DNA of 58,514 nucleotides, from positions 1 through 58,514 of the IMG/VR virus record IMGVR_UViG_3300032157_000372, one strand, 5' to 3'. Position 1 is the stretch's first letter, and every line of letters starts with the position of its first letter. Origin of the DNA: a virus. The notes below the pieces were generated by a model. The model saw nothing but the letters and a program-made list of their open reading frames with translations. It did not search any database and was not told the DNA's origin. Positions 5,981 through 47,234 of the stretch are shown here, one piece after another. Both the position numbers and the translations under genes were made by a program.

Positions 5981-6414
5981 CGTGGCTCCCCCTTCGACCC
6001 GCCGTTGCGGCGGCGCCATTCGCGCTCATTGTCCCAATCCGCGCTCGGCGGCCGATCGCCGTGGTGCGCGAAGGGGTCTGAATCGGCGAGCCACGTGCGC
6101 AGGCCCGAGCCCATGAGCTCGATCGCGCGCACGACAGCGTCCATGACGTGCTGCTCGAAATGGCCGAACAGGCCGTAGACGGCGAGGAACAAAAACATCT
6201 TGCCGCCGAAGCCGACGGCGCTCGCCGCCATGCCCGAGAGGTAGGCCGCGCCGATGATGGCGAACGCGCCGATCAGGGCGCGCACGGCCGTGACAATGAC
6301 GAGGCGGCGGGCAGGGATGGCGCCGTGCGCGCGGGCGATGGCGGCCCGGCGCAGCCCCCGCAACACACCCGCTCCATTGACGCTTGCGCTCATGGGGTCC
6401 CCCGCCTTCGGCAT
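5977..6414 (-). CDS. Small integral membrane protein
   Basis: Protein of 145 residues with two hydrophobic segments (around residues 38-60 and 68-85) and a charged C-terminus. ATG 6414 follows the previous stop by the TGAGCGATG junction used elsewhere in the operon. A second ATG at 6393, preceded by a GGGGGA ribosome site, is a real alternative. Function unknown. Confidence 0.65.
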   Translation of the reverse strand: MPKAGDPMSASVNGAGVLRGLRRAAIARAHGAIPARRLVIVTAVRALIGAFAIIGAAYLSGMAASAVGFGGKMFLFLAVYGLFGHFEQHVMDAVVRAIELMGSGLRTWLADSDPFAHHGDRPPSADWDNEREWRRRNGGSKGEPR

Positions 6415-9496: not shown

Positions 9497-9857
9497 GCGG
9501 CCCAGTTCCGTTGCCGTCTCAAGTCAGTCGCGTTTCACGTGTGGCGTCCAAAGCACCAGTCAGCGTCACCCGGCCCCGGCGCCGGGCGTGTGTGGGGTTC
9601 TGATCTCGAGCAGCCGCTCGACCTCGGACTAAGCAACCCGCGCACGCCTCGCGACGCGACCGGAAACGGTTTCGTCACCTAACCCCGCCGCATGCCGCGG
9701 CGTGTTTAGGGGCTGTCCCTAGACTTGGGCCGCCTGCCCAGGGAGCGCCCGCGCCTCGCGCGGGGGCAATGATCGAAGTGGGCGGCCATTTTCTAGGGTG
9801 GTTGCACCCCGCGGCGCCGGCGCCTCGTCAAGCGTGGCCGGCAGCGGCGGGACCTAG
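9497..9857. other. 361-bp gene-poor region before the tRNA
   Basis: No convincing coding frame on either strand. It contains a stable hairpin around 9678-9712 (outer CCTAA/TTTAGG, inner CGCCG/CGGCG) and a GC-rich run. It could hold an untranslated leader of the rightward transcript or a small RNA. Confidence 0.5.
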
Positions 9858-9933
9858 TGCGGGGTAGAGCAGCGGCAGCTCGCCTGGCTCATAACCAGGA
9901 GGTCGTCCGGTTCGAATCCGACCCCCGCTACCA
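9858..9933 (+). tRNA. tRNA-Met (CAT)
   Basis: 76 nt with encoded CCA. The anticodon stem CCTGG/CCAGG (9883-9887, 9895-9899) encloses loop CTCATAA with anticodon CAT at 9890-9892. The TTCGAAT T-loop and a standard D-arm are present. Two oddities: position 1 with 72 is a T-T mismatch, so the acceptor stem has six pairs, and the T-stem pairs fully only if one C is bulged. The stem sequence is elongator-like, not the GGG/CCC of initiators. An isoleucine-type modified CAT tRNA cannot be excluded. Confidence 0.82.
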
Positions 9934-10208
9934 GTTTCGCCCGAAAGGGCACGAGTGGTTTCCGCGGGGAGACCAGCGAGGAAAAGTGCCCCGCCTGACG
10001 CGTCGGACGATCGAGAGCCGGTCAGGCAAACAGCGGTGAGGCGCAGCGGCGGCAGTCGCGGTGAAGCGTAGCGCCTCAAGTGAATTCGCGCGCGCCCTTG
10101 GCTGAGAGGGCGTGTGTTGGGGGGAGTTGTTGCGTCGGCGTTCTTCCGTGACAGCCGCCGGTGAGATGCGTCTCGCCGGCGGCGTTGGAAGCGAAAGGGG
10201 GGAATGCC
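9934..10208. other. Non-coding stretch with a strong hairpin
   Basis: 275 bp between the tRNA and the next gene with no convincing coding frame. The main feature is the hairpin at 10154-10183. Confidence 0.5.
10154..10183 (+). repeat. 13-bp stem hairpin before 10209 gene
   Basis: GCCGCCGG and CCGGCGGC with a T-G pair and GAGA/TCTC close a four-base TGCG loop. It ends 25 bases before the GTG start of the next gene and lacks a T-run, so a leader or attenuator structure is more likely than a simple terminator. Confidence 0.7.
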
Positions 10209-21529: not shown

Positions 21530-23163
21530 AGCGCAAGCGCTACGACCCCGCCGACAACTCGGCCAAGAGCTACACGGCCGCGGTCGATGCCATTCGCATG
21601 GAGGGCGTCAAGGCCGGCCGCTTCCTGCCGCTTGCCGATCGGCCCGAGGAGATCAAGGCCTCGCCGATCGTCGACGACGTGCGCCGCATCGCCAATGGAA
21701 ATCACGGCCACGCCACCCTCTACCTCGGCGACTGCCGACGCATCGTGCCGCTGCTCGAGAACCTCGACGCGGCCGTGACCGACCCGCCCTACGAGCTCGG
21801 CTTCATGGGCAAGGGCTGGGACTCGAGCGGCGTTGCGGCCGCGTGGGAAACCTGGGGCGCGGTGCGCATCGCGCTGAAGCCCGGCGCGCATCTCGCGGCC
21901 TTCGCCGGCGCGCGCACCTATCACCGCATCGCGGCCGCGATCGACGACGCCGGTTTCGAGGTGCGCGACCAGATCATGTGGATTTACGGCTCGGGGTTTC
22001 CGAAGTCGCTCGACGTTGGCAAGGCGGTCGACGCGCTCGACGTCGTCGGCCCGCGCCGCAATCGCGCGCTGCGCTTCACCGCCTGGATGCGCTCGACCGG
22101 GCTCACGGCGCGCAAGATCAACGCCATCACCAAGACCGCGATGGGCAGCCACTACCTCACCGACGGCGAGCAGCCCGAGATCCCGACGCCGGAAATGTTC
22201 GACCTGCTGCGGCCGCACCTGGCCGCCGTGCCGCCCGACGTCGAAGCGCTCATCACCAGCCGCGCCGTCGAGAGCGAGAACGTCAAGCGGCGGCTGGTTG
22301 TCGGCCAACACGAGAAGCCTGCACATGCCGCGGAGTGGCGCGCGAGCCTCGGCCTGGGCGGTGTCGCGCCTGCCGGCGCGATCTCGCAGGCTTACACCGA
22401 CGACGCCAAGAAATGGGAAGGCTGGGGTACAGCGTTGAAGCCGGGACATGAGCCCGTGTGTTTCGCGCGGAAGCCGCTTTCCGAAGGCACCGTCGCCGCC
22501 AACGTGCTGCGCTGGGCGACGGGGGCGATCCATGTCGACGCTGGTCGTGTCGGCGACGATCGCATGATGCGTGAACGTTCGACAGGCCAACTGCTGACCA
22601 GCAATGGATCGATGGCCGGCGGCAAATACTCGCGCGAGAGTCTGGGCGAAGTCGAAGGCCGCTGGCCGGCCAACGTCGCCCACGACGGCTCGCTCGAGGT
22701 GCTCGAGTGCTTCCCGCCCTCGGCGCGCGATGCCATCCGGTTTTTCTACGCCGCGAAAGCGGACCGGGCCGAGCGTAACGCCGGGCTGAAGGAACTTCCT
22801 CTGAAAGCGCGCCCGACCATGGGCAACGGCATCGGCGGCCAGCCCGATCAGGGCCGCGCGAACAATCGCAATTCGCACCCGACCGTCAAGCCCGTCGACC
22901 TGATGCGCTGGCTCTGCCGCCTCGTGACGCCGCCCGGCGGCATCGTGCTCGACCCGTTCATGGGCTCTGGGACCACCGGCATCGCTGCCCTGCGCGAGGG
23001 CTTCTCGTTCGTCGGCTGCGAGCAGGACGCGGGCTATTTCGACATCGCGGCCCGGCGCATCCAGCACGCCGCCGACATGATCCGCCGCGAGCCTGATCTC
23101 GTGCGCGAGATCGCCGGCGCCATGACAAAGCGCCGCGCCGGCGACCAGGGAGAATTGCTGTGA
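21526..23163 (+). CDS. DNA methyltransferase, beta-class N4/N6
   Basis: Protein of 545 residues from a GTG (GTGA junction). The catalytic DPPY is at 86-89 and the SAM-binding DPFMGSGT at 476-483, so motif IV precedes motif I, the beta-class order used by N6-adenine and N4-cytosine enzymes. The spacing is unusually large: roughly 300 residues of extra sequence, likely the target-recognition region, lie between. The final helix carries the FDIAARRI motif. No restriction partner is adjacent, so it is a solitary phage methylase. Confidence 0.92.
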   Translation: MKRKRYDPADNSAKSYTAAVDAIRMEGVKAGRFLPLADRPEEIKASPIVDDVRRIANGNHGHATLYLGDCRRIVPLLENLDAAVTDPPYELGFMGKGWDSSGVAAAWETWGAVRIALKPGAHLAAFAGARTYHRIAAAIDDAGFEVRDQIMWIYGSGFPKSLDVGKAVDALDVVGPRRNRALRFTAWMRSTGLTARKINAITKTAMGSHYLTDGEQPEIPTPEMFDLLRPHLAAVPPDVEALITSRAVESENVKRRLVVGQHEKPAHAAEWRASLGLGGVAPAGAISQAYTDDAKKWEGWGTALKPGHEPVCFARKPLSEGTVAANVLRWATGAIHVDAGRVGDDRMMRERSTGQLLTSNGSMAGGKYSRESLGEVEGRWPANVAHDGSLEVLECFPPSARDAIRFFYAAKADRAERNAGLKELPLKARPTMGNGIGGQPDQGRANNRNSHPTVKPVDLMRWLCRLVTPPGGIVLDPFMGSGTTGIAALREGFSFVGCEQDAGYFDIAARRIQHAADMIRREPDLVREIAGAMTKRRAGDQGELL

Positions 23164-26348: not shown

Positions 26349-28274
26349 ATGAGCGTCCGCTTCGACGCCTCGGGCGAATATCTCTCCCGCGCTGCCAACC
26401 TGCCGGGCGTCTCGCTCGGCACGGTCTGGGGGTGGTGCCGAGTGGTTGCCGACGTCGGCGCCGACACCGGCCAACCGATCTGCAATCTCGGCAACACGAC
26501 GAATACCGACTACGCCTACGGCCTCTATTGGGAGGGTATCACAGCCGGCGAGACGATGACGGTGTTGTCGTATGACGACGCCACCGCCACGATCAACGAG
26601 GTCGCCTTCGGCTCCAGGCCCGCCGCCGGGACCGATTTTTTCTGGGCCCTCGTGTGTGCCGGCGCCGGCGCGAACCAGATCACGGCCTACTGGTCGGCCG
26701 CCAACTCCGACACCTGGAACTCGGCGCAGACGACGCAGGTCTCAGGTCAGAGCGCGCCGAATGCGCTCTTCATCGGCCGCGATATTCACAACTTCACTCG
26801 CCTCAATGGTCGCGTAGGATTTGTCGGCTGCGCGGACCGGGCGCTTGCGCTCAACGAGCTGCGCATCCAGAAGTACAGCTCGCTGCTCGCCCGTCCCGAG
26901 AGCGCGAATTTCTTTTGGCCCGCCTACGACGCGACGCAGGCCGGCACGGACTACTCCGGCAGCGGGCGCAATGCCACCGTCAACGGCACGCTGACCACGG
27001 AAGACGGCTTCCCGGTCGCCGACATTTTGCATCCCGATTGGGATGGCGCTCTTGCTGCTGGCGTATCCGGCATCGACGGCACGGCCAACGTCACGCTTGC
27101 CGACGACGCGACGAGTGGCGGTGCTGATGTCAGCATTGACGCAGCCGGCGCACCCAATTTCGCGACCGACGCGATCTCGGGCGCAGCGTCGATCGACGTC
27201 TCGGGCGCAGCGAGCCTCACGCTTGCGACCGACATCGTCGCATCCGCGGCCGCCGTCGACATCGCGGCCGCAGCGACACTCGTGCTTGCCGATGATGCCT
27301 GCGTCGCCGTCGGCATCATCGAGACCCTTGCCTCTGGCACGCCGACGCTCGCCGACGACGCGACGAGCGCGGCGGGCGCGGTCGACATCACGGCCGCAGC
27401 GAGCCTCACACTCGTTGACGACACCGTCTCGGCCGCGGCCGAGGTGCCGATCACGGCCGCGGTCGCGCTCACGCTCACGGACGACACGGTTGCGGCCGCC
27501 GCCGAGCTGCCGATCGGCGCTGCGGCCAGCCTCACGCTCGCCGACGATCTCACGGCCTCGGCCGGCGCGGTCGACATCACGGCCGCGACGGCGGGGACGC
27601 TCGCCGATGACACGCTTTCGGCTTCGGCTGCCGTCGATATCACGGGTACGGCGTCGCCCACGCTCGCCGATGACACGAGTTCGGGCACGATCGGCGACGT
27701 CGGCGCCACGCTCACGGGCACGCTCGCGCTCGCCGACGATACGGTTGCAGCACAGGCCGCCGTCGACATCGACGCGGCAGCGGCGGGAACACTTGCCACC
27801 GACACGACGTCGGGTCAGTCCGCAGTTGCCATCGCAGGCACGGCGTCTCTTGCGCTCGCCGACGATGCGCTGACGGCGGCCGGCGAGGTCGGCAACATTG
27901 CCGCCGCGGCGGGCATCGACCTCGCCAGCGACACGGCCTCCGGCCTTGCGACGGTTACGCTCTCGGGCGGCGCCGACATCACGCTCGCCGACGACGTGAG
28001 CGCCGGCACCGCTGCGGTCGCTATCGCGGGAGCGGTCAATCTCACGCTCGCCGACGACACGGTTTCGGGCAACACGGGCGACCAGATCACGGGTGCGCTC
28101 GGGACGACGCTTGCCGACGGCACGGTCGCGGGCGCAATCGTCGTTGACGTCGGCTACCTGTTCACCGTGCGCATGCCCCCCGTGCACACGTTTTCCTGCC
28201 CGCTGCCGGCGCGCCATGACTTCACGGTGCTCATGCCGGCCGTGCACACGTTCACGGTGCGGAGAGCGGCATGA
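26349..28274 (+). CDS. LamG-like adhesin with 21-residue repeats
   Basis: Protein of 641 residues. Residues 1-220 form a concanavalin/LamG-like beta-sandwich (VSLGTVWGWCRVV ... GRVGFVGCADRALALNELRI). From about residue 243 to 600 there are about 17 tandem repeats of roughly 21 residues with the pattern LTLADDTVSAAAAVDITAAA. The C-terminus carries two related FTVxMPxVHTF blocks. Such proteins act as virion surface fibres or decorations that bind carbohydrate. The repeats have diverged, so the array is old and under selection rather than a recent expansion. Confidence 0.8.
   Translation: MSVRFDASGEYLSRAANLPGVSLGTVWGWCRVVADVGADTGQPICNLGNTTNTDYAYGLYWEGITAGETMTVLSYDDATATINEVAFGSRPAAGTDFFWALVCAGAGANQITAYWSAANSDTWNSAQTTQVSGQSAPNALFIGRDIHNFTRLNGRVGFVGCADRALALNELRIQKYSSLLARPESANFFWPAYDATQAGTDYSGSGRNATVNGTLTTEDGFPVADILHPDWDGALAAGVSGIDGTANVTLADDATSGGADVSIDAAGAPNFATDAISGAASIDVSGAASLTLATDIVASAAAVDIAAAATLVLADDACVAVGIIETLASGTPTLADDATSAAGAVDITAAASLTLVDDTVSAAAEVPITAAVALTLTDDTVAAAAELPIGAAASLTLADDLTASAGAVDITAATAGTLADDTLSASAAVDITGTASPTLADDTSSGTIGDVGATLTGTLALADDTVAAQAAVDIDAAAAGTLATDTTSGQSAVAIAGTASLALADDALTAAGEVGNIAAAAGIDLASDTASGLATVTLSGGADITLADDVSAGTAAVAIAGAVNLTLADDTVSGNTGDQITGALGTTLADGTVAGAIVVDVGYLFTVRMPPVHTFSCPLPARHDFTVLMPAVHTFTVRRAA
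27079..28155 (+). repeat. About 17 diverged 63-bp coding repeats
   Basis: Each unit encodes about 21 residues centred on LADDT. Units vary mostly in the alanine/serine positions and a few are one or two codons longer. Not a CRISPR array: no identical repeats and no spacers. Confidence 0.8.
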
Positions 28275-32040: not shown

Positions 32041-33660
32041 ATGCAGTCTGCAGCACAGACGGCCGCGCCCGCCAAGCGCATTCCGTTCCGCGACGCGCTC
32101 GCCTCGCGCATGATGGCGGGCTCGAGCTCGGCCTACGCCGCGGCCTCGCAGTTCGATCGCCAGATCGCGCTCTGGAACCCGGCGCTGCGCTCGGCCGACG
32201 CCGAAGTGCTGCGCGACGCGGCGAAAATCCGCGCTCGCGCGCGCGATCTCTACCGCAATCATCCCTACGGCAAGCAGATCGTCCGCATGGCGGTCCTCGC
32301 CGTGGTCGGCAAAAAGCTCCGCTACGCGTCCAAGATCAATCACGTGTTCCTCGGCATCGACGAGGAAGAGGCGGAACGCTGGGACGGCGAATTCTCGCGC
32401 CTCTGGGAGCAGTACGCGCACGGGCCAGGCGCCTGGGTCGACGCCGGCCGGCGCCTCAACTTCTCGGCCTTCATGCGCCTTGCCTTGCGCTCGCGCATGG
32501 TCGACGGCGAGGCGCTCGTCGCCGCCGAGTGGATGCGCGGCCGCAGGTGGAAGACCTGCTTTCAGCTCGTCGACGTCGACCGGCTGTCGAATCCGCACGG
32601 ACGGCCCGACAGCGCCTACCTCAAGGGCGGCGTGGTGCTCGACGACGGCTCGGCGCCAGTCGGCTACCACATTCGCAACGGGCACCCGGCCGACATCGGC
32701 GTCACGGCGCCGCTGCGCACCAACACCTGGACGCTCGTGCCGCGAGAGACGGCCTGGGGCCGCCCGGTGATGCTGCACTCCTACCTGCAGGAGCGCGCCG
32801 AGCAGACGCGCGGCATCTCTGATTTCACGACCGTCATTCGCGCCATGCGCATGCAGCAGGAGTTCAGCGAGGCCGATCTCGCCTCCGCCATGATGCAAGC
32901 GATGTACGCGCTCGTCATCAAGTCGAATGCCGACTGGTCGAAGGCCATGGAAGCGATCGGCGGCGAGGTCGAGGTCGACGACAACGGCAACCCGGTCAAT
33001 CCGATGATGGCGATGGCGCTCGACCAGCTCGCGACCGCCGCCGCCTACCACAATGAGGCGAAAATCATCGGCTTCGACGGCGGCCGAATCCCGCACCTGG
33101 TGCCGGGAGAAGAGCTGCAGATGCTGTCGCCCGAGAACAAGGCGTCGAACGCGGCTGAGTTCACGAAATCTGCCGTCAAGCAGTTCGCCGCCGGCCTCGG
33201 CGCCGACCCGATCTCGGTCTCCCAGGACTATTCCGACGTCAACTACTCGTCGGCGCGCATGTCGGTCGCCTCGAATTGGCGCGCGCACGAGGTGACGCGC
33301 GGCGACCTGGTCTACGACATCGGCATGCCGATGGTGCAGGCCTTCCTCGAGGAGGTCGTGCACGCTGGCGTGCTCAAGCTGCCGAAGGGCGTCAAGGAGA
33401 CCGATTTCTACGACGCGCTGCCCGCGCTCTGCTCGGGCAATTTCCTGACCGGCGGCCCGCCGATGCTCGATCCCATGAAGGAGCGCCAGGGCCAGCAGAT
33501 GGGCTGGTCGCTCGGCCTCGACACGCTCGAGGAGATGGGCGCCGAGGAAGGCGACGACTGGAAAGAGAAGATCCGTCAGAAGGGGCGCGAGATCCGCTTC
33601 ATGCGCGAGCAGCGCGTGCCGCTGCCGGGCGAGCCTGTCGTGCCGCCGATGGCGCCTTAG
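32041..33660 (+). CDS. Portal protein, lambda family
   Basis: Protein of 539 residues. Typical lambda-type portal sequence (ARDLYRNHPYGKQIVRMAVL, SQDYSDVNYSSARMS). It forms the dodecameric ring through which DNA enters the head. The TAG stop is followed in frame by 16 more codons (to TAA 33711), discussed under findings. Confidence 0.95.
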   Translation: MQSAAQTAAPAKRIPFRDALASRMMAGSSSAYAAASQFDRQIALWNPALRSADAEVLRDAAKIRARARDLYRNHPYGKQIVRMAVLAVVGKKLRYASKINHVFLGIDEEEAERWDGEFSRLWEQYAHGPGAWVDAGRRLNFSAFMRLALRSRMVDGEALVAAEWMRGRRWKTCFQLVDVDRLSNPHGRPDSAYLKGGVVLDDGSAPVGYHIRNGHPADIGVTAPLRTNTWTLVPRETAWGRPVMLHSYLQERAEQTRGISDFTTVIRAMRMQQEFSEADLASAMMQAMYALVIKSNADWSKAMEAIGGEVEVDDNGNPVNPMMAMALDQLATAAAYHNEAKIIGFDGGRIPHLVPGEELQMLSPENKASNAAEFTKSAVKQFAAGLGADPISVSQDYSDVNYSSARMSVASNWRAHEVTRGDLVYDIGMPMVQAFLEEVVHAGVLKLPKGVKETDFYDALPALCSGNFLTGGPPMLDPMKERQGQQMGWSLGLDTLEEMGAEEGDDWKEKIRQKGREIRFMREQRVPLPGEPVVPPMAP

Positions 33661-33703: not shown

Positions 33704-36700
33704 ATGGCTAAGGAGCCGCTGCCGCGCAACTGGAAGGCCATGCGCGCCGATCGCGTGCTCGCCATGGCCGAGAACCGTTTCGGACGGCGCTTTTCGTCGA
33801 AGGCGGCGGCGATCGCCGAGCTATCGCGGCTTCCCAACGCCGAGCAGCGCTCGCTCAAGAAGGTTGCGGTCTCGAAAAGCGAGGCTGTGCGGCGTGCTGG
33901 TGCGTCTGACCGCATGATTTCAGGCATGTCGCAGGGGCAGAGACCGATGGCTGGCATTGCGGACGAGATCAAGGGCCTGAAGAAGGCGGACCTGCAGGCG
34001 ATCGCGCGCGAGGTGAGCGTCAGCACCAAAGGCAGCGTCTCGCAGCTCAGGGCCTCGATTGTGAAGCGCGCCACCGAGCATGCGCGCTTCGCCGCCAAGA
34101 ATTCTGTTGCTGGCCAGCTCGGCATAGGCATGGTGCTCGGCGGCACTGTCGACCAGTCCAAGGTGCGCTCCGCGACGGCGGCCGGCCGCGCCGAGATGGA
34201 GCAGCGCATCAGGGCCGCGATTTCCAAGGTCCGCGGCGGAGGCAGCGCGAGCAGCTCCGTCGAGGCGCTGTCGGCGAAAATCAACGCCACGCTAAAGAGC
34301 CCGACGCGCGAAAGCATCGCCGCCGTGCGCCAGGAGCTTGCCGCGGCGCGCCTCTCGAAGGTCGATGCGCATGCCATCGCGAAGGCCACAGAGCTGCCCG
34401 TCAAGGCGGCGTCGGCGGCCAAGGCGGTCACGGGCCGCCTCGACAAGCGGCTCGGGAGCCTCGCGAGCTTTCTTGCCAAGAAGGCCGCCGTCGGCGGCCG
34501 CGGCGCGGCCGGCATCGCGCTCGGCATAGCCGCGGGCGGCCTCGCGCTCGCCATGACCTCGCGCCAGTCCGAGGCCGCCGAGGGCAAGAAGCGCAACAAG
34601 GGCCCATCGGCGAACACGGTCAAGGCGAAAGAGGCCGAGGCGAACAAGGCCAAGGCGGAAGCCGAGCGGGCCGCCTCCGAATCGCGCGCGCGCGAAGCGG
34701 AAGCCCAGGCCCGCGCCCGCGAGGCCGAGGCGAAGGCCGCCGAGCGCAAGTCCGCCGAGGAGACGAAGCGCGAGGACGCGCGCATCAAGGCCGAGGAGCG
34801 GAAGCTCCGCGCCGGTCGCGAAGGCTACGCCGCGAACCTCAACCTGGCCGCGACCGCGGCCGGCATCGTCGGCGGCGTCGTCGCCGGCAAAAAGATCGCA
34901 GGCAAGGTCAAGGCCGACGACATCGCGGCCGAGAAGCTGCGCACGCGCCAGGCCAAACAACTCGCCGCCGCCGCCAAGGGCGGCAAGGGCGCTTCATCGC
35001 TCAAGGCGGTCGCCAAGACGGCTGCCGACATGAAAATCGTTCGCGCCGAATCGCGCAGTGCGCGGGCTATGAACGTCGCCGGCAAGATCGGTCTGCCCTA
35101 TGCGGCCGCTCTCGTTGTCGAGGGCGTGATCGCGCGCCAGGTCGCTGCCGAGCTCGAGGAGCGCGGTAACGTCGAGGGCGCGGCGATCGCCCGCGGCGTC
35201 GGCATGGCCGGCACCGTGGCGGCGGCGACGCTGATCGGCTCGCGCTCGACCGACCTCGCGTTCCCGACCAAGGCCCCGAACGCCGGCCACGTCGCGAAAA
35301 TCGAAAAGGCGCGCATTGACGCGGCCGAGAAGCCGAAGCGCCGCGCCGCGCGCACGAAAGCGGCCGCCGTCAAGGGCGATCCTGTGGCACAGCTCGCCAA
35401 AAACACGGGCGCGACGCTTTCGAAGGGCGCCAAGGCGCCGGCCGCGGCCGTCGCCGCCGCCGGCAAGGGCCCCGCCGGCTGGTCGGACGCTGCCCGCGCA
35501 GCCTCGGCGAAGGTGCGCGCCGCGAACGCGAATCCTGCCGTCCCGCCGCTGATGGAGAAGCAGCCGGCCGCGGCGAAGGCCCCGAATGCAGCGGCAGCCA
35601 AGGCCGCCGCTCCCAAGGCGCCCAAGGTGGCGACGGCGCCGAAGGTGCCGCCGGTCAAGGATCTGCGCGCGATGGCGAAGGCCGAGGGCGTCAAGGGCGC
35701 TCTCTCGATGAGCAAGAATGCGCTCGCCGCGACGTTGCGCGGGCTCGGCAAGCTGGTGCTGCCAGCCGCGATCGGCCTCACGGGCTATGCGGCCTTCCAG
35801 GACGAGGCCGCGGCCGCCGAGGCCAGCGGCGGTGACGCAACGGCGCAGGGCGCCACGGCCGCGACCAAGGCCATCACCGATTACCTCACCTTCGGCGCCG
35901 GCTCCGAGACGGAGAGATTGATGGCGGCCGGCAAGAGCCGCGGCGAGGCCGTCGCGCGCGGGATTGCCGTCGGCGCGATCAACACGGCGACGCTCGGCAC
36001 GGTGACCGCGCTCGACGAGGTCTACAAGGATCAGGGCGGCGCCGCCGCCTACGTCTTCGACAGCGTGCGCGACGCGGTCGGACATCTCGCGCGTGGCGTC
36101 AAAAAGGGTGTCGAGGTCGCGAAGTCCCGCCAGTCGGGCGAGGGCGAGCCGTCGAAATCCAGCGGCGCGGGCGAGGCGATGGCCGGCGCGGCCGCGGTCG
36201 GCGTCGGCATGGCCGACCACAAGTTCAGCAAGGCGCGGGGCAAGGCGCTGATCGCCGTCGGCGCCGGGCTCATCCTCGACGCCGCGATGAGGTCGGACGC
36301 CAAGGCCGAAGAGGCGCCCAAGGGCGGCCCGGTCGGCTTCCAGAACGAGGCGACGCTCAACGCCGCGCTCGAGGCGCAGGGCAAGGCTGCCTCGGGCGAG
36401 GGAAAGAAGGACGACACGGTCGACCGTGTCACCGACGGCGCCCTCGGCGTGGCGGCCGCCGGCTTCGGCGCAGCCCTCCTCAAGGAGGGGCGCCACAAGA
36501 TTGCCGGCCCCGCATTCCTTGCGCTCGGCACGGGAATGGTGCTGAGCGCGCTGGCGGGTGACGCCGACGCGGCCGAAGCGCCGAAGGGCATGCCGAAAGG
36601 AGCTGACGCGGAGAAATCCGACGCCGGCGTCGGCGCCGGGCTCACAGCGACGGGCGCCGTGCTCGCCGGCGGCGGCATCACGGCGATGAAGTTCGGCGCC

Positions 36701-37036
36701 GATGCGCTCAGGAACGCCGCGACCACGCTCGCCAAGGTGCGCGGCGGCGGCATCGCCGCGGCCGGCATCTCGCTCGCGGCCCTCGGCGTCGGCGCCATGC
36801 ACGAGGGCATCGACATCCTCAAGGGCAAGGAACCCGTGGCGCCGGGCAAGGCCTACCTCAACGAGGCGGCCGAGCGCAAAGCATCGAAGCCCGCGCCGAA
36901 GCCGAAAGCCTCCGTCGGCACCGTGGTCGCCGCGAGCCAGAAGAAGAAATCCGACGGCCAGACGGCCGGCTACACGCGCCGCTCGAAGACCGGCACGTCC
37001 GTCCGCGTCCAAGGCTACCGCACGCCGACCAAGTAG
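33704..37036 (+). CDS. 1110-residue Ala/Lys-rich multi-hydrophobic protein
   Basis: Lies between portal and head protease, where lambda-type phages have no gene this large. The N-terminal 130 residues include LKKADLQAIAREVSVSTKG, a SAP/Rho-N-like helical motif. A charged coiled coil lies at about 307-370. Hydrophobic helices occur around 264-292, 379-400, 463-515, 685-700, 826-862, 911-945 and 976-1032. Several end in similar EAPKG or AAEA tails (QSEAAEGKK, SDAKAEEAPKG, GDADAAEAPKG). It could be an internal ejection protein that crosses the host membrane, a core protein of the prohead, or a giant scaffold. Family not recognised; function is inference. Confidence 0.82.
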   Translation: MAKEPLPRNWKAMRADRVLAMAENRFGRRFSSKAAAIAELSRLPNAEQRSLKKVAVSKSEAVRRAGASDRMISGMSQGQRPMAGIADEIKGLKKADLQAIAREVSVSTKGSVSQLRASIVKRATEHARFAAKNSVAGQLGIGMVLGGTVDQSKVRSATAAGRAEMEQRIRAAISKVRGGGSASSSVEALSAKINATLKSPTRESIAAVRQELAAARLSKVDAHAIAKATELPVKAASAAKAVTGRLDKRLGSLASFLAKKAAVGGRGAAGIALGIAAGGLALAMTSRQSEAAEGKKRNKGPSANTVKAKEAEANKAKAEAERAASESRAREAEAQARAREAEAKAAERKSAEETKREDARIKAEERKLRAGREGYAANLNLAATAAGIVGGVVAGKKIAGKVKADDIAAEKLRTRQAKQLAAAAKGGKGASSLKAVAKTAADMKIVRAESRSARAMNVAGKIGLPYAAALVVEGVIARQVAAELEERGNVEGAAIARGVGMAGTVAAATLIGSRSTDLAFPTKAPNAGHVAKIEKARIDAAEKPKRRAARTKAAAVKGDPVAQLAKNTGATLSKGAKAPAAAVAAAGKGPAGWSDAARAASAKVRAANANPAVPPLMEKQPAAAKAPNAAAAKAAAPKAPKVATAPKVPPVKDLRAMAKAEGVKGALSMSKNALAATLRGLGKLVLPAAIGLTGYAAFQDEAAAAEASGGDATAQGATAATKAITDYLTFGAGSETERLMAAGKSRGEAVARGIAVGAINTATLGTVTALDEVYKDQGGAAAYVFDSVRDAVGHLARGVKKGVEVAKSRQSGEGEPSKSSGAGEAMAGAAAVGVGMADHKFSKARGKALIAVGAGLILDAAMRSDAKAEEAPKGGPVGFQNEATLNAALEAQGKAASGEGKKDDTVDRVTDGALGVAAAGFGAALLKEGRHKIAGPAFLALGTGMVLSALAGDADAAEAPKGMPKGADAEKSDAGVGAGLTATGAVLAGGGITAMKFGADALRNAATTLAKVRGGGIAAAGISLAALGVGAMHEGIDILKGKEPVAPGKAYLNEAAERKASKPAPKPKASVGTVVAASQKKKSDGQTAGYTRRSKTGTSVRVQGYRTPTK

Positions 37037-37049
37037 GGCACCCCCGCAC

Positions 37050-38552
37050 ATGACCCAAGGCATTGCGATGCAGTCGCAGTCGCCGGGGACGGCGCATGCC
37101 GACCTCGGCTTCTGGCTGCAGAGCCAGATCATCGGCCAGCCGATGGCGATGCGCGAGGAGAACCTCAATGCGCTCGTCGAATCGATCGCCGCCAACCGCT
37201 TCTCGCTGCCGCGCAACCGCACCACGGGGGCGCGCATCACCGAGAAGGGCACGGCGATCGTCGAGATCCACGGCGTGCTCATCAACCGCATGCCGGTGAT
37301 GGGCACGTTCTGGGGCCTCACGGCCTACGAGGGTCTCGGCGAGCAGTTCCGCCGCATCAAGACCAACGCCGACATCAAGCGCGTGGTGCTCGACGTCGAC
37401 AGCCCCGGCGGGCTGGTCGCCGGCATCCGCACCTGCGCGGACGCGCTCGAGGACCTCGCCGAGGAAAAGCCGGTCTACGCGGTCGCCCACGACATGGCGT
37501 GCTCGGCCGGCTACTGGCTCGCGTGCATCGCCGAGGAATTGTCGGTCACGCCCGACGGCGACGTCGGCTCGATCGGCGTGCGCGGCGGCCACGTTTCCTA
37601 TGCCCAGCTCCTCGATCGTGCGGGCATCGACATCCGCGTGATCAAGGCCGGCCGGACCAAGGCCGACCACGCGATCAGCGAGCTGCTCAGCGACGGCGCC
37701 GCCGCCGAGATGCAGTTCACGTGCGACCGCCAATACGACCGCTTCGTTGCCCACGTCGCGCAACACCGGCCGCTCTCCGAGTACGAGGTGCGCGACACGG
37801 ATGCGCGCTGCTGGGTCGGCCAGGACGCGGTCGACGCCGGCCTCGCCGATCGCGTCGAGACGCTCGAGGAGCTCGTCGAGCGCATCGAGAAGAACACCGC
37901 GCGCGTCAAGCCGCGCCGCAAGCTCAAGACCGACAAGAGTTCCAAGGGCGGGCTCGCCCCTAGTCAGCGTTCGTCAGCGCCACCGCGGGCGCCGGGCGAC
38001 GACGAGCCGACCGCGGCCTACCCCCGCCACAGAGGAGGACGGACAGTGTCCGATCGCAACGAACCGGGCGCTGCCGGCCCGGATTACGCTCAAATCATCG
38101 CGGCCTACACGGCAGGCATCGCCGCGAGCAAGACGACGCCGGCGGCTCCCGCTGCCGGAGCGCCGGCGGCCCCGGCCGCTGCGGCTCCCGCCGCTCCGGC
38201 TGCTGCTGCGGCGCCCGCGACGCCCGCCGAGGCCGCGACCGCGGCGCGCGAGCGCATCAAGGCGATCATGGGCTCGGAGGCGGCCAAGACGCGGCCCGGT
38301 CTTGCCCAGCACATCGCGCTCGAGACCGACCTCGACGCCAAGACGGCGGAGGCGCTCCTCGGCGCCGCGCCGGCCGAGGCCGCCGCCGACAAGGGCAAGA
38401 CCGAGCTCGGCAGTGCGCTCGAGAAGCGCATGAGCCAGGGCGGCAACGCCGCCGGCATCAAGCCGGACGGCTCGGGCCCCGCCGCGCAGCGTCCCTCGCT
38501 CGCCGACCACGTCGCCGCCAAGTATCAACCCGCCGCCAAGAAGGGAGCCTAA
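37050..38552 (+). CDS. Head maturation protease, S49 family, fused to scaffold
   Basis: Protein of 500 residues from ATG 37050 (37068 possible). The SppA/lambda C-type protease has Ser152 in the ACSAGYW motif and a candidate general base Lys204 in KAGRTKAD, 52 residues later, the separation known for the archaeal SppA dyad. The C-terminal 168 residues are Ala/Pro-rich and correspond to the scaffold. It cleaves the scaffold during prohead maturation. Confidence 0.93.
   Translation: MTQGIAMQSQSPGTAHADLGFWLQSQIIGQPMAMREENLNALVESIAANRFSLPRNRTTGARITEKGTAIVEIHGVLINRMPVMGTFWGLTAYEGLGEQFRRIKTNADIKRVVLDVDSPGGLVAGIRTCADALEDLAEEKPVYAVAHDMACSAGYWLACIAEELSVTPDGDVGSIGVRGGHVSYAQLLDRAGIDIRVIKAGRTKADHAISELLSDGAAAEMQFTCDRQYDRFVAHVAQHRPLSEYEVRDTDARCWVGQDAVDAGLADRVETLEELVERIEKNTARVKPRRKLKTDKSSKGGLAPSQRSSAPPRAPGDDEPTAAYPRHRGGRTVSDRNEPGAAGPDYAQIIAAYTAGIAASKTTPAAPAAGAPAAPAAAAPAAPAAAAAPATPAEAATAARERIKAIMGSEAAKTRPGLAQHIALETDLDAKTAEALLGAAPAEAAADKGKTELGSALEKRMSQGGNAAGIKPDGSGPAAQRPSLADHVAAKYQPAAKKGA
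38046..38552 (+). CDS. Internal scaffold protein, Nu3-like
   Basis: An internal GTG (38046) in the protease frame with a strong GAGGAGG ribosome site seven bases before it would give a 168-residue product identical to the protease tail. Lambda does the same with gpC and Nu3. The sequence is Ala/Pro-rich then helical (ERIKAIMGSEAAKTRPGL), as in scaffolds. Confidence 0.8.
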   Translation: MSDRNEPGAAGPDYAQIIAAYTAGIAASKTTPAAPAAGAPAAPAAAAPAAPAAAAAPATPAEAATAARERIKAIMGSEAAKTRPGLAQHIALETDLDAKTAEALLGAAPAEAAADKGKTELGSALEKRMSQGGNAAGIKPDGSGPAAQRPSLADHVAAKYQPAAKKGA

Positions 38553-38555
38553 CCC

Positions 38556-39233
38556 ATGGCCGTCGTCTCCAACTTCCCCAAGCTGTCGAGCGAGTGGCTG
38601 GTCCATGAGCTCGACTCCCGCATGCACCGCAAGCAGGGCACGATCCTCGCCGCGACGGGCAACCTCCCGACCGGCGCCGTGCTCGGCAAGATCACGGTCG
38701 CGGGCGCGTCCTCGGCCGCCAAGTCCGGCGGCAACACGGGCGGCGGCTCGCTGACGCTCGACGTGACGACGCCCGTGCTCGCCGACGCGAAAGCCGGCGT
38801 CTACACGGTGCGCTGCGTCGGTCTCGTCGCCAACGGCGGCCTGTTCGAGGTCAGGGACCCCGACGGCGTCGTGCTCGGCTCCTACACCATCGGCGGCGCC
38901 GCCTTCGCCAAGCACATCAAGTTTGCGATGGCCGATTCCGGCACCGACTTCGCGCTCGGCGACGGCTTCGACATCACGATTGCGGCCGGCTCGGGCAAGC
39001 TCGCCTACTACGACCCGACCGCCGTCAACGGCGCCGCGACGCCCTACGGCATCCTGCTCGATGCGCGCGACGTCTCGGGCGGCTCCGACGTGGCGGGCGT
39101 GGTCGTGACCGGCAACGCCGAGATCATCGCCCTGGGCCTCACCTGGGGCGCCGCGGTCGACGACGCGCCCAAGAAGGCGGCCGGCCTCGTGCTGCTCGAA
39201 AAGCTCGGCTTCATCGGCCGGCAGCTCGTCTAA
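38556..39233 (+). CDS. Head decoration protein, gpD-like
   Basis: Protein of 225 residues, longer than lambda D (110). The C-terminal part (YGILLDARDVSGGSDVAGVV) matches the gpD-type family, which trims the capsid lattice at trimers. Located in the lambda order between protease/scaffold and major capsid. Confidence 0.88.
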   Translation: MAVVSNFPKLSSEWLVHELDSRMHRKQGTILAATGNLPTGAVLGKITVAGASSAAKSGGNTGGGSLTLDVTTPVLADAKAGVYTVRCVGLVANGGLFEVRDPDGVVLGSYTIGGAAFAKHIKFAMADSGTDFALGDGFDITIAAGSGKLAYYDPTAVNGAATPYGILLDARDVSGGSDVAGVVVTGNAEIIALGLTWGAAVDDAPKKAAGLVLLEKLGFIGRQLV

Positions 39234-39347: not shown

Positions 39348-40409
39348 ATGCAACTCGATTTTCTGCGCGACCCGCGCTACTCCGTCCGCAACGTGTCGGA
39401 CGCCATCATGAAGATCCCGAACGAGTATTCGCTGCTGTCGCAGTTCGGGCTCTTCCCCGAGAAGGGTATCCGGACGACCTATGTCGAGGTCGAGATCAAG
39501 ACCGGATTCCTCAATCTGATCCCGACCTCGGAGCGCGGCTCGCCGGCGACCGAGTCCAAGCGCTCGACCCGCCAGACCCGCGTCATGAAGACGCTCTTCA
39601 TGCAGAAGAACGCCACCATCCGGCCGTCCGACCTGCAGAACCTTCCGGCCTTCGGAACGCTCGACCAGGCCGGGAACGCGAGCGATGCCTTCTTCGAGTC
39701 CTTCGACAGCGAGCTCACGGATCGTTTCGACGATCTGCAGCGCGGCTACCGGCAGACGCACGAGTACATGCGTTGGGGCGCGCTCAAAGGCGACGTCTAC
39801 GACGCCGACGGCAGCCGCGTGCTCTACAACTGCTACACGGAGATGGGCGAGAGCCAGCAGTCGATCGATTTCGCGTTCGGCACGACCTCGTCGGATACCG
39901 TGATGGCGGCCTCCAAGGCCGGCCGGCGCTACATGGAGCAGAACCTGCTCGGTGAGCCCATGACGCGCCAGCTCGCGCTCTGCTCGTCGGAGTTCTTCGA
40001 CAACGTCTGCAACCATCCCTCCTACCGCAAGTTCTACGAGAACAATCCGGTGGGCAAGAACAACCCCGTGCTCGACGATCTCGGCGTCACCTACTTCCAG
40101 CACGGCACCTGGACCTACATCGAGCACAACGGGCAGGCGACCTACCTCAACGCCGACGGCACGACGGCGACGCGCCGCTTCATCCCCGCGAGCGAGGCGA
40201 TCATCGTCCCGCTCGGCACGCAGCAGGTGTTCCGCTCCTACTTCGCGCCGGGCGAGATGCTCGACGCGGTCAACATGCCGGGCCAGTCGATGTACGCCTC
40301 GCTCAAGGAGCTCGACCACGGCGGCGGCGTCGAGATCCACACGGAATCGGCGCCTCTGTTCCTGGTCCAGAAGCCGCGCCTCGTGCTGCGCGGCTACTCG
40401 AGCAACTAA
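39348..40409 (+). CDS. Major capsid protein, gpE-like
   Basis: Protein of 353 residues, the length of lambda E (341). Typical start MQLDFLRDPRYSVRNVSDAI and the C-terminal HTESAPLFLVQKPRLVLRG. Forms the T=7-type HK97-fold shell. It is followed by a strong terminator, allowing high expression of the capsid gene. Confidence 0.95.
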   Translation: MQLDFLRDPRYSVRNVSDAIMKIPNEYSLLSQFGLFPEKGIRTTYVEVEIKTGFLNLIPTSERGSPATESKRSTRQTRVMKTLFMQKNATIRPSDLQNLPAFGTLDQAGNASDAFFESFDSELTDRFDDLQRGYRQTHEYMRWGALKGDVYDADGSRVLYNCYTEMGESQQSIDFAFGTTSSDTVMAASKAGRRYMEQNLLGEPMTRQLALCSSEFFDNVCNHPSYRKFYENNPVGKNNPVLDDLGVTYFQHGTWTYIEHNGQATYLNADGTTATRRFIPASEAIIVPLGTQQVFRSYFAPGEMLDAVNMPGQSMYASLKELDHGGGVEIHTESAPLFLVQKPRLVLRGYSSN

Positions 40410-42217: not shown

Positions 42218-43744
42218 ATGCCCGTCAGCTTCAACGCCATCCCTTCCTCGCTCCGCCTGCCGCTGTTCTGGGCCGAGCTCGACCCGAGCCAGGCCGGCAC
42301 GTTCGCCAACTACCAGCGCGCGCTGCTGATCGGCTACAAGAAGACCGCGGGCCCGGCCGCAGCCGATACGCTGATGCGCATCACCTCGCCCGACCAGGCG
42401 CGCGCGCAGTTCGGCCGCGGCAGCCAGCTCGCGCACATGTTCGAGCTCTGGTTCAAGAACAACCTCTTCGACGAGGTGTGGGCCATCGCCATCACGCCGC
42501 CCTCGGGCGGCACGGCGTCGTCGGGCACCATCGTCGTCGCCGGGCCGGCCACGGCCTCGGGCGTCATCGCGCTCTACATCGGCGGGCGCAAGATCACGGT
42601 GCCGGTCGTCTCCGGCGACGCTTCCACGGCGATCGCGGCCGCGATCAACACCGCGATCAACGCCGCCCTCGACCTTCCCGTGACCTCGTCCGTAACCAGC
42701 AGCACGGTCACGCTCACGGCCAACTGGAAGGGCATCGACGGCGACGGCATCGACATCCGCACCAACTATCTCGGGCCCCTCGGCGGCGAGGTCCTGCCCG
42801 CCGGCGTGACGCTCACGATCACGGCCATGGCCTCGGGCGCCGGCACGCCGACGCTCACCTCGGCGATCGCGGGCATGGGCGACCAGGAGTTCGACACGGT
42901 CGCGATCGGCTGGACCGACACGTCGACGCTCAACGCGATCGACGCCGAGTGGGACCACGTCGGCGACAACGGGCGGTGGAGCTGGCTGCGCCAGGTCTAT
43001 GGCCACGTCTACTGCGCCAAGGACGGCACGTCGGGCGACCTGCAGACCTTCGGCGCCGCTCGCAACGGCGGCCACGTCACCTGCTTCGGCTACTACGGCT
43101 CGCCGACGCCGTCCTGGGAGCGGGCCGCGATCTTTGCCGCGCAGGCGCACCGCGCGCTCATGAACGATCCGGCCCGCCCGCTGCACACGCTGCCGCTCAA
43201 CGGCATGCTGCCGGCGATCCCCGATCTGCAGTTCACGAAGGGGGAAAAGAACGCGCTCGCCTTCGACGGCATCTCGGTCGCCAAGGATACCGAGGACGGC
43301 CGCTGTCAGATCGAAACCTCGTTCACGATGTGGCAGAAGAACCCGCACGGGCTCGACGACAACGCGCTGCTCAAGATCCAGACGCTGGCGACACTGGCCT
43401 ACGTGCTGCGCTCGCTGCGCTTCCGCATCGTGCAGAAGTTCCCGCGCCATAAGCTCGCCAGCGACGGCACCCGCTTCGGGCCCGGCCAGGCGATCGTGAC
43501 GCCCAAGATCGCCAAGGCGGCGATCGTCGCCCACTACCGCGAGCTCGAGTACCTGGGCCTGGTCGAGAACACGGACGCGTTCAAGGCCAATCTCATCGTC
43601 GAGCGCAACGTCACCAATCCCGACCGCCTCGACGTTGTCTACCCGCCCGACGTGGTCAATCAGCTCGACGTGTTCGCGGTCCTCGCGCAGTTCCGGCTCC
43701 AGTACCCGGCCGAGCTGCCCGACCAGCCGTTGCCTATTGCTTAG
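42218..43744 (+). CDS. Contractile tail sheath protein, Mu gpL-like
   Basis: Protein of 508 residues, the usual sheath size. The start (MPVSFNAIPSSLRLPLFWAE) is characteristic of the Mu-type sheath, and the C-terminus (QFRLQYPAELPDQPLPIA) ends in the conserved assembly domain. Establishes that the tail contracts (myovirus). Confidence 0.95.
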   Translation: MPVSFNAIPSSLRLPLFWAELDPSQAGTFANYQRALLIGYKKTAGPAAADTLMRITSPDQARAQFGRGSQLAHMFELWFKNNLFDEVWAIAITPPSGGTASSGTIVVAGPATASGVIALYIGGRKITVPVVSGDASTAIAAAINTAINAALDLPVTSSVTSSTVTLTANWKGIDGDGIDIRTNYLGPLGGEVLPAGVTLTITAMASGAGTPTLTSAIAGMGDQEFDTVAIGWTDTSTLNAIDAEWDHVGDNGRWSWLRQVYGHVYCAKDGTSGDLQTFGAARNGGHVTCFGYYGSPTPSWERAAIFAAQAHRALMNDPARPLHTLPLNGMLPAIPDLQFTKGEKNALAFDGISVAKDTEDGRCQIETSFTMWQKNPHGLDDNALLKIQTLATLAYVLRSLRFRIVQKFPRHKLASDGTRFGPGQAIVTPKIAKAAIVAHYRELEYLGLVENTDAFKANLIVERNVTNPDRLDVVYPPDVVNQLDVFAVLAQFRLQYPAELPDQPLPIA

Positions 43745-44878: not shown

Positions 44879-45048
44879 GCCGCGACGACGATCCCGACGA
44901 GGTCATCGACGAGCTCGTCGACCTGTGCTTCGACATGGCGCACATCCTGCACCAGCACCCGGACGCCTTCCTCGACCTGCCGCTCGATGAGCTCAACTTC
45001 TACGCCGACGCCACGGCTCGGCTCGCCAAGCGCACGAAAGGCAAGTGA
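44306..45048 (+). CDS. Tail assembly chaperone, -1 frameshift product
   Basis: Slipping at T TTT TTC (44866-44872) continues the chaperone into the -1 frame as RLGRDDDPDEVIDELVDL and on to TGA 45048, adding 58 codons. This matches the gp41/gp42 (or lambda G/GT) arrangement directly before the tape measure. Confidence 0.85.
44866..44872 (+). promoter_or_regulatory. -1 ribosomal frameshift site
   Basis: T TTT TTC in frame zero, the classic X XXY YYZ heptamer. The zero-frame stop TAG is four bases downstream (44876-44878). Confidence 0.88.
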
Positions 45049-47234
45049 TGGCCGGACCTCTCGACCTGCGCGGGCGCGCCACGATCTCGAACGGCGCCAG
45101 CGGCACGCTCGGCGCCATCAAGCGCGATCTGGCCTCGGTCGGCAACATGACCGGCCGGCGCACGGTGCCGCTCGGCACCGCCATCACCAACGGCATGATG
45201 AGCGGCGCCGTCGCGACCAAGAAGCTGCAGAACAACCTTGTCGGCGCGACGGCGGGCGCCTGGGCGCTGGTCTCGGCCGTCAGGAAGGCCGAGAGCTTCA
45301 ACCGCAACGTGTTCGGCGTCGGCGTGGCCGCGATCGGCGATTACACCGACCGCGTGAAGGACGCCGCGACCGGCACGGAAAAGGTCGTCGTCGACTTCGA
45401 CAAGGTGCGCGCATCCATGGAGCGCGTGTCGAAGCTCTCCAAGGACCTGGCGCACGAGATCCCCGAGACGCCGACCAAGCTCTCCGGGATCGCCGAAACT
45501 CTCGCCAAGGCGGGCTTCGGCGACGAGAAGCTCGCGGCGGCGACCAAGTGGGCAGCGATCCTGGGCTCGACCGATACCGAGACGGCTGCCTCCGAGCTCG
45601 GTGAGTTCGCCTCCGTTCTCGATACGATCTACAAACCACGCCAGGGCGAGGCCTGGGGCGACTACTTCAAGCGCCAGCTCGACATCGTGCGCATCGCCGC
45701 TGCCGAGACGCGCCTCTCGCTCGCGTCCACCATGGAAGGCCTCCGGCCCTTCTCGGCGCTCTACTCGCTGCTCGGCAACTCCGAAACCGACAACGCGATG
45801 CTGCTCATGGGCGGTGTGCGCAAGGGTGGCGAGGCGGCCGAGGTCGGCCACACGCTGAAATCGGACGCCATGCGCATGCTGCGCTCGACGGCGGAATCGA
45901 CGTCACGGTTCTCGGCCTTGGGCCTCCGGCGCTCCGACTACACCGACCTTTCGGCCATGGACCCGACGCGGGCGGCCGGTAACCTGTCTCGTGTGTTCCG
46001 CTCGGCCGACATCACGGGCAAATTCCGCAAGTCGATCGAAGCCGACATGCAGAAGGCCATCGAAACCGGGACGTTCGACACGGCCGAATTCCAAGACAAG
46101 CTCTTGGCCAAGGTGGCGAAGCGCGCTGGCGTCGACATGAAGGACGACGTCTCGCGCGAGAGCTTCGAGGACAAGTTCAACAACGCCATTTTTGCCGGCG
46201 GCGCGCGCTTCAACATGCGCAAGCTGTTCGAGGACCTGGTTGCCAAAGGCGCGACGGCGGCGGATGTCGGCACCATCTTCGAAGGCCGCCGCATCGGCAC
46301 CAACATCCAGATCCTCGAGGGCTTGAAGGAATTTGGCCCCGAGTTCATGAAAAAGCTCGAGATGGCAGACGGCACCGGCCTTTCTGCGGTGCTCGACCTG
46401 CTCAAGGAAAGCGATTACGGCCGCCTGCAGAAGTTCTCGGCCATGATGGAGGACTTCCAGATCAAGCTCGCCAACTCGGGCGGCTTCCAGACATTCCTTT
46501 CCGGCATCACGGCCGTGTTCGACACGCTAGGTCAGTTGCATCCGGCCGTCGTGAACATCGGCGTCGCCGCCGGCATCGCCGCGATCGCGCTGACGCCGCT
46601 GGCAATGCTGTTCCGCGGCCTCGCCGGAATGGCTCGTGTGCTAAGGGCGGCGCTCGCCTTCGTCGGCATCGGCGGCGCGGCCGCAGCAGCCGGCGGCGCG
46701 GCCTCGCGCATGGCCGCGGGCGGCCTGGCCGGAGCCGGGACAGCGGCGGCAGCGGGCCTCCTCAAGAAATTCGGCATCAAGGGCCTCGCCAAGCTCGGCG
46801 CGCGCTTCATTCCGGGCCTCGGCCTGGTCGTCATGGCGGGCGGGGCGGGCTGGGCCGCCTACGACGCCTGGCAGCGCGGCGAGGACGCGCTCGGCATCGG
46901 CAAGAGCGCCGCGCTGGGCGCGATCGGCCTCGACGGCATCGCGCAGGCGGGCGAGGCCCCGGCCGGCGGCGAGGGCAAGGCCGATCTCGGTCTCGGCGCC
47001 AACGCCGACGGCGCGATCGCGGACGCCCGGTCGGCCGCCGAGCAGATCCGCAGCGCCTTCCTCTCGGTCGACCTTTCGAGCGTCGGGCGCCAGATGATGG
47101 ACGAGCTCGCGGCCGGGATTCGCTCGGGCGGTGCCGCGGCGGTCGCGGCCGCCAACGACGTTGCGGCCCAGGTCCGCGCCGCCGGCGAGCGCGTGCGGCT
47201 CAACACCGGCCCCAACATGCAGCCTGCGCGCTGA
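45048..47234 (+). CDS. Tail tape measure protein
   Basis: Protein of 728 residues beginning in the TGATG overlap with the chaperone extension. Mostly alpha-helical with a hydrophobic Gly/Ala segment (about 495-600) near the C-terminus. Its length fits a myovirus tail of roughly 100 nm (family rule of thumb). Sets tail length. Confidence 0.9.
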   Translation: MAGPLDLRGRATISNGASGTLGAIKRDLASVGNMTGRRTVPLGTAITNGMMSGAVATKKLQNNLVGATAGAWALVSAVRKAESFNRNVFGVGVAAIGDYTDRVKDAATGTEKVVVDFDKVRASMERVSKLSKDLAHEIPETPTKLSGIAETLAKAGFGDEKLAAATKWAAILGSTDTETAASELGEFASVLDTIYKPRQGEAWGDYFKRQLDIVRIAAAETRLSLASTMEGLRPFSALYSLLGNSETDNAMLLMGGVRKGGEAAEVGHTLKSDAMRMLRSTAESTSRFSALGLRRSDYTDLSAMDPTRAAGNLSRVFRSADITGKFRKSIEADMQKAIETGTFDTAEFQDKLLAKVAKRAGVDMKDDVSRESFEDKFNNAIFAGGARFNMRKLFEDLVAKGATAADVGTIFEGRRIGTNIQILEGLKEFGPEFMKKLEMADGTGLSAVLDLLKESDYGRLQKFSAMMEDFQIKLANSGGFQTFLSGITAVFDTLGQLHPAVVNIGVAAGIAAIALTPLAMLFRGLAGMARVLRAALAFVGIGGAAAAAGGAASRMAAGGLAGAGTAAAAGLLKKFGIKGLAKLGARFIPGLGLVVMAGGAGWAAYDAWQRGEDALGIGKSAALGAIGLDGIAQAGEAPAGGEGKADLGLGANADGAIADARSAAEQIRSAFLSVDLSSVGRQMMDELAAGIRSGGAAAVAAANDVAAQVRAAGERVRLNTGPNMQPAR

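Follow-up and report, generated by a model that had tools for sequence, protein, structure and literature searches.

A C-terminally tagged, membrane-prone protein between the portal and protease genes of a phage with a lambda-type head, a predicted virion cargo

The stretch of viral DNA analysed here (IMG/VR record IMGVR_UViG_3300032157_000372, 58,514 nucleotides, hereafter the window) carries a gene for a protein of 1110 residues, flanked by the genes for a lambda-type portal protein and an S49 protease, which were identified with Pfam. Judging by its sequence, this protein is a member of a rapidly diverging set of membrane-prone proteins, encoded beside head genes, which have a common C-terminal end; the set seems not to have been described before, as our literature searches listed no account of it. 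We consider it rather probable that the protein is one of a class of modular cargo or ejection proteins housed inside the virion, C-terminally tagged and predicted to associate with DNA and to interact with membranes. The constant end on changing bodies, in a head gene block beside portal and scaffold/protease, looks like a loading signal with its cargo, and the high positive charge, the lack of cysteine and the membrane-prone pairs are in keeping with packing alongside the DNA and passage through a membrane.

A gene family in the portal-protease slot

The open reading frame (ORF) is a genuine coding gene, since its GC content by codon position (0.70/0.56/0.89, roughly constant over its length) is like that of its neighbours (0.67/0.46/0.91 for the portal and 0.71/0.54/0.90 for the protease), whereas the long antisense ORFs have no coding pattern (0.77/0.53/0.74 and 0.85/0.58/0.74).

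Direct searches with the protein gave no match in phages, plasmids or viral contigs, in part, it seems, owing to its low complexity, which hinders BLAST. The relatives were reached through relatives of the portal, whose contigs have the same arrangement (comparison records are labelled L002 to L059, and a suffix a or b denotes the first or second gene of a pair). Homologues between portal and protease genes, for which an earlier sequence-only reading of this DNA had proposed a search, are present in all six complete intervals, those of the window and of the related IMG/VR contigs L003, L005, L006, L008 and L010; each interval consists of a single tagged gene or a pair of them, with no further gene evident. 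The genes are tightly packed, except that in L010 an extra gap of 384 bases (9630-10012), with no evident + strand gene, separates the portal from the tagged gene; elsewhere in the group genes touch. The interval is cut by contig ends in L002, L007, L029/L045, L038/L044 and L014/L046, with a consistent arrangement. In L009, a remoter contig whose portal has 30% identity, no such gene was seen.

Single tagged genes encode 423 to 1110 residues, and the pairs 509+177 (L006) and 508+814 residues (L008). A profile built from the relatives, with the window protein left out, recovers the latter at E 1e-27, and a profile of L005 and L010 at E 1.5e-48; profiles from L003/L002 alone, or from the relatives with a peptidoglycan-binding-like N-terminus (PG-type, see below) alone, do not list it. 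All 11 family proteins measured lack cysteine and are basic, with net charges from +13 to +76, the last being that of the window protein. The tag occurs in nine records, several of them closely related; independent lineages among them may number four or five.

The sequence-only reading had stated that lambda-like phages have nothing comparable at this position. This agrees with the nine characterised phages examined, which were picked, for spread and for alphaproteobacterial hosts, from 515 phage records whose portal is related: portal and protease genes are adjacent in eight, and in Rhizobium phage PPF1 (L054) they are separated by a single ORF of 90 residues (4312-4584). In its head block, directly behind the protease gene, PPF1 also has an annotated lytic murein transglycosylase (5523-6068), a further hint of wall-active head cargo. 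Two scans of bacterial genome contigs with the portal and the capsid protein as queries returned no relative and no prophage.

The C-terminal tag

Intact-ended members all close with AYLN/AFLN-xxA, a linker of about 20-30 residues and YxR(R)...G..V..Y. This module, the tag, spans 50-63 residues and ends 0-3 residues from the stop in 11/11 proteins of the nine records. When each member is left out in turn, it is retrieved at E values from 4e-12 to 2e-22 (10 of the 10 tested), the best decoy reaching E 1e-4, once; in the window's own record the profile gives E 6.1e-25, with a model of which the window protein is one row. Among 9,905 frames of 63 sequences no other protein falls below E 0.01 (the next is at E 0.018), and whole-record profile searches confine the tag to these genes. 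A DNA-pattern scan gave 12 matches in 11 contigs, five of which are C-terminal tags of the group (L029, L031, L033 twice and L038); the other seven are internal, in other reading frames or proteins. The tag has no match in Pfam, PHROGs, phages or plasmids (tblastn gives two chance-level phage hits, E 3 and 6, and none in plasmids).

The tag is predicted to form a short helix followed by a beta-hairpin, whose strands (1090-1093 and 1099-1102; predicted local distance difference test, pLDDT, 73-81) are among the few confident regions of the structure model of the window protein. Bodies of at least three kinds bear this same C-terminus: the core family, L008b and L006b-like proteins.

Variable bodies

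The bodies of the core family combine hydrophobic pairs with a coiled-coil-like helix at the N-terminus. Where the window protein begins with a module of about 290 residues that bears a SAP-like segment, L006a, L007a, L008a and L029 begin with a peptidoglycan-binding-like stretch, which matches PG_binding_1 of Pfam at sub-cut-off values (E 0.003-0.011) in the three PG-type relatives scanned and was assigned in L029 by alignment to them. A profile search of the Protein Data Bank (PDB) with this N-terminus returned 24 weak matches, several to cell-wall enzymes and others to unrelated enzymes. A scan of viral sequences with the PG-type proteins added contig L059, which encodes an endolysin-looking protein of 265 residues with the first 37 residues in common (47%, E 1e-5).

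Residues 81-135 of the window protein, around its SAP-like segment, match residues 446-500 of L008b (z 15.5, 0/1000 shuffles). A second SAP-like segment at 661-700 was considered and rejected (z 0.2 and 0.7).

L008b has a body of another kind. Its residues 48-365 match phrog_10691 (E 1.2e-49), and also a 3912-residue protein of Ruegeria phage 45A6 (E 2e-58) and proteins of Dunaliella virus SI2 and the Prochlorococcus phages P-SCSP1. The 45A6 protein (L042 6805-18543, annotated hypothetical) has a polyvalent make-up, with LPD38, helicase, methyltransferase and GNAT domains, and has a module in common with P-SCSP1 gene 21. It is in gene 21 that the L008b match falls in P-SCSP1a, a T7-like cyanophage, and a passage of PMC9860041 gives that gene as an internal virion protein, guessed from size and position. 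Further along L008b, residues 578-760, with the tag left out, match the core family's PG-type members. Used as the sole query of a scan, the L008b module retrieved its own contig only, and its assignment to DdrB-like ParB proteins, suggested by a DGHQRL motif, was not confirmed by Pfam or a PDB profile search; the structure model of residues 1-440 is too poor to use (pLDDT 44).

The third kind, L006b and a similar cut gene beside L029, has short hydrophobic bodies. Neither the L006b body nor a 70-residue fragment of the cut gene matches the core profile.

Hydrophobic segments, duplicated hairpins and the proposed cleavage

The window protein has eleven 19-residue windows with a mean Kyte-Doolittle value of at least 1.2, compared to a mean of 4.3-4.5 and a maximum of 10 in shuffled sequences, and six pass a summed Hessa-type scale. 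The at least eight hydrophobic helices of the sequence-only reading are thus borne out at moderate hydrophobicity, but not at a threshold of 1.6.

Four related acidic tails had also been described after the hydrophobic blocks. Two of them, SDAKAEEAPKG and GDADAAEAPKG, lie inside a true duplication (hairpin repeats r1, residues 820-878, and r2, residues 903-966), which is not reproduced in any of 1000 shuffles when the tails are removed. The two others, QSEAAEGKK and AAAAEASGGDA, have no clear relation (nearest pair z 3.1, 6/500) and were rejected as copies of the same module; the third hydrophobic pair was likewise rejected as a copy of r1 or r2 (z 1.3 and 0.2).

It had further been proposed that the protein is a polyprotein, which the adjacent S49 protease would cut after each acidic tail, so that several small membrane peptides are freed and ejected. 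We find no support for such cleavage and regard this as the least probable of the explanations considered, in spite of the neighbouring protease gene and the duplication of two tails. AxA-type sites follow hydrophobic segments at chance level (13/57, compared to 12.5 with shuffled flanks, 146 of 300 shuffles reaching the observed count, and 8/58 in reversed sequences); on the same ground, the tails, each of which resembles an AxA site behind a hydrophobic stretch, were rejected as signal-peptide or signal-peptidase sites. The r1/r2 tails are found in the window protein and are absent from its aligned relatives, and L010 lacks the whole tail-bearing region yet retains the tag. One AxA, A702-x-A704, is invariant in 9/9 aligned relatives, and a single conserved processing site there is possible. 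Cleavage of an ejection protein by the host has a precedent, gp7 of P22, which according to its database record is trimmed by OpdA. A limited literature search on the cleavage specificity of such proteases found nothing relevant.

The other half of the proposal, ejection with the DNA, fares better: the position among head genes, the charge of +76, the membrane-prone helices and the relatives' peptidoglycan-binding-like and internal-virion-protein modules make it a fair suggestion, and carriage in the head followed by ejection would fit these features better than cleavage.

Proposed role and alternatives

In the mechanism that we favour, the constant C-terminal helix-plus-hairpin would dock the protein, most likely during head assembly, onto the portal, the scaffold or the protease. 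The variable part would be the cargo, with its DNA-binding-like SAP segment, long coiled coil and Gly/Ala-rich hairpins which may be amphipathic or transmembrane-prone. The protein would be packed along with the DNA and leave through the tail with it, and the hairpins may then insert into the inner membrane and help the DNA across.

Several observations weigh against the proposed role of virion cargo. Two windows of the protein reach the usual Kyte-Doolittle value of 1.6, the PG_binding and SAP matches fall below the Pfam cut-offs, and the structure model is poor overall (mean pLDDT 47, pTM 0.28). No match to any known ejection protein was found in Pfam, PHROG, NCBIfam, PDB or phage searches. 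The ejection proteins of T7 and P22, used as controls, show neither such hydrophobic clustering nor such a high Ala content, so that the likeness to them is one of role only. In the usual view, phages with contractile tails have no need of such proteins. The conserved C-terminus could also be an ordinary domain instead of a signal.

Two further explanations were considered. The protein might be a scaffold-like assembly protein: its Ala/Lys/Glu helices would build, on the portal, an internal core that the S49 protease clears away or breaks down ahead of DNA packaging. The gene's place beside portal and protease, the coiled coil predicted at 303-376, the Ala/Lys/Glu-rich composition and the strongly variable length would suit such a core. 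We hold this to be unlikely. The scaffold part is probably carried by the protease gene itself, as in lambda (the protease has a long C-terminal part), and HK629 has an internal assembly gene within its protease gene. Moreover, hydrophobic hairpins, a peptidoglycan-binding-like stretch and a polyvalent-protein module, the last two found in relatives, are not features of scaffolds, and neither the P22 scaffold nor the S49 protein of the window shows such hydrophobic windows. A minor structural protein of the portal vertex, retained in the virion as a lining or a neck plug, would agree with the gene position, the basic charge and a conserved C-terminus suited to a fixed binding site, but a 2.6-fold variation in length and changing bodies suit cargo better than a symmetric part, and we find this explanation more doubtful than the scaffold-like one.

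A broader idea can be put forward tentatively: the tag, about 55 residues of helix and hairpin, might be recognised by the assembly of portal and scaffold-protease, so that lambda-type heads take up and deliver any protein bearing it, the portal-protease slot being the site where cargo is swapped. Such a plug-in system would cover membrane hairpins, a peptidoglycan binder, a polyvalent effector module and a DNA binder. If the tag is a loading signal, it would be the first known to us in lambda-type heads, for which no exhaustive search was made, and its presence at the C-terminus would suffice to reveal hidden cargo proteins. Phages that combine such heads with contractile tails would then also send membrane-active and effector-like proteins ahead of their DNA.

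Comparison with known systems

A tagged protein in the head slot with a SAP-like segment resembles known kinds of virion cargo, and the possible function of the tag as a packaging signal is the interesting part. The polyvalent proteins of Iyer et al. 2017 (PMC5512222), as described in passages of that paper, are large modular phage proteins encoded beside virion genes, thought to be packaged and injected, and some contain Rho-N/SAP-type domains; the window protein, encoded between portal and S49 protease, has its sub-threshold SAP-like segment. L008b has a module in common with a true polyvalent protein, that of 45A6, and the window protein's only own link is the two short segments common to L008b. 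Polyvalent proteins combine at least two disparate, mostly enzymatic, domains, whereas in the window protein the SAP match stands alone, no enzymatic domain is recognisable, Ala/Gly-rich hydrophobic hairpins dominate, and the C-terminal module is unmatched in Pfam, PHROGs, phages and plasmids.

The ejection proteins of T7 (gp14/gp15/gp16) and P22 (gp7/gp16/gp20) resemble the window protein in the role predicted for it; according to parts of PMC8954989, they include proteins with membrane-prone helices and one with a peptidoglycan hydrolase domain. No sequence match to these families was found with PHROG, Pfam, NCBIfam or PDB. Their genes follow the tail genes of podoviruses, whereas here the gene is in the head block of a contractile-tailed phage, and the window protein has a much higher Ala content and net charge.

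The P1 Dar proteins and the T4 internal proteins with capsid targeting sequences are cargo inside the virion as well, directed there by a short signal at one terminus; for P1 DarB, PMC9024508 states in part that the N-terminal 30 residues suffice. They have no sequence match to the window protein and their signals are N-terminal, whereas the constant part, a putative signal, is here C-terminal (about 50-63 residues) in 11/11 proteins and on at least three body types, that is, a short conserved terminal segment on differing cargo. The N4-like DEV ejection proteins and the crAssphage cargo proteins are also large capsid cargo delivered with DNA, in the account given in parts of PMC10925440; no sequence relation to them was found, and their context is that of podoviruses.

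Gene neighbourhood

A GpA-type terminase precedes the portal, and the protease is followed by decoration protein D, capsid protein E, tail sheath, tape measure candidate and baseplate genes. These are the genes of a lambda-type head on a Mu-type contractile tail. The long Ala/Pro-rich C-terminal part of the protease is likely its scaffold part, from its position and length. The 1110-residue protein matches no tape measure profile of PHROGs.

Table 1. Features of the 1110-residue protein and neighbouring genes, in window coordinates.
Feature	Coordinates	Strand	Evidence or remark
Tagged virion-cargo/ejection-like protein (predicted), 1110 residues	33704..37036	+	ORF, codon-position GC, homologues in same slot
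N-terminal extra module, residues 1-296, behind conserved MAKE start	33704..34591	+	alignments with L003/L002 and with ten members; absent from shorter relatives
SAP-like (helix-extension-helix) segment, residues 89-126	33968..34081	+	Pfam SAP E 0.036, sub-cut-off
Family core, residues 291-613 and 622-806	34574..36121	+	domain E 3.1e-18 and 5.3e-12 in hmmsearch with relatives stripped of the tag
Ala/Glu/Lys/Arg-rich long helix, probable coiled coil, residues 303-376	34610..34831	+	predicted helix, pLDDT ~80
GPAGWSDAAR segment, common to L008b	35462..35542	+	z 7.8, 0/1000 shuffles
Conserved hydrophobic helix ending A702-x-A704	35735..35821	+	P687, A702, A704 invariant 9/9, no gaps between
Hairpin repeat r1, residues 820-878	36161..36337	+	duplicate of r2
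Hairpin repeat r2, residues 903-966	36410..36601	+	z 10.7 against r1, 0/500 shuffles
Third hydrophobic pair, residues 968-1042	36605..36829	+	similarity to r1 and r2 not significant
C-terminal tag module, residues 1048-1110: AYLNEAA helix, linker, beta-hairpin YTRR..G..VRVQGYRTPTK	36845..37033	+	leave-one-out E 4.4e-19
Portal, lambda family	32041..33660	+	PF05136 E 2.4e-86; TIGR01539
S49 head maturation protease	37050..38552	+	PF01343 E 2.5e-35; phrog_53 E 9e-86; start taken from sequence
Head decoration protein D	38556..39233	+	PF02924 E 3.9e-20
Major capsid protein E	39348..40409	+	PF03864 E 2.3e-70
Tail sheath (contractile tail)	42218..43744	+	phrog_165 E 2.3e-178
Tape measure candidate, distinct from the 1110-residue protein	45045..47234	+	phrog_1686 E 8e-7; phrog_1533 E 9e-5

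Decoration protein D has roughly double its usual length: the 116-position Pfam match is stretched across residues 8-218, a domain of about 100 residues is seemingly inserted, and the length is equal in L003, L006 and L008. On the 5' side of the terminase genes, an ORF of 641 residues (26349-28274, + strand) has no match in Pfam, PHROG or NCBIfam. At 21901-22005, 105 bases are 86.7% identical to a human-faeces phage record, MT835566.1, which is otherwise unmatched. In L004, a contig of 4.8 kb, the first 218 portal residues are 100% identical to those of the window, which indicates the same or a very close phage.

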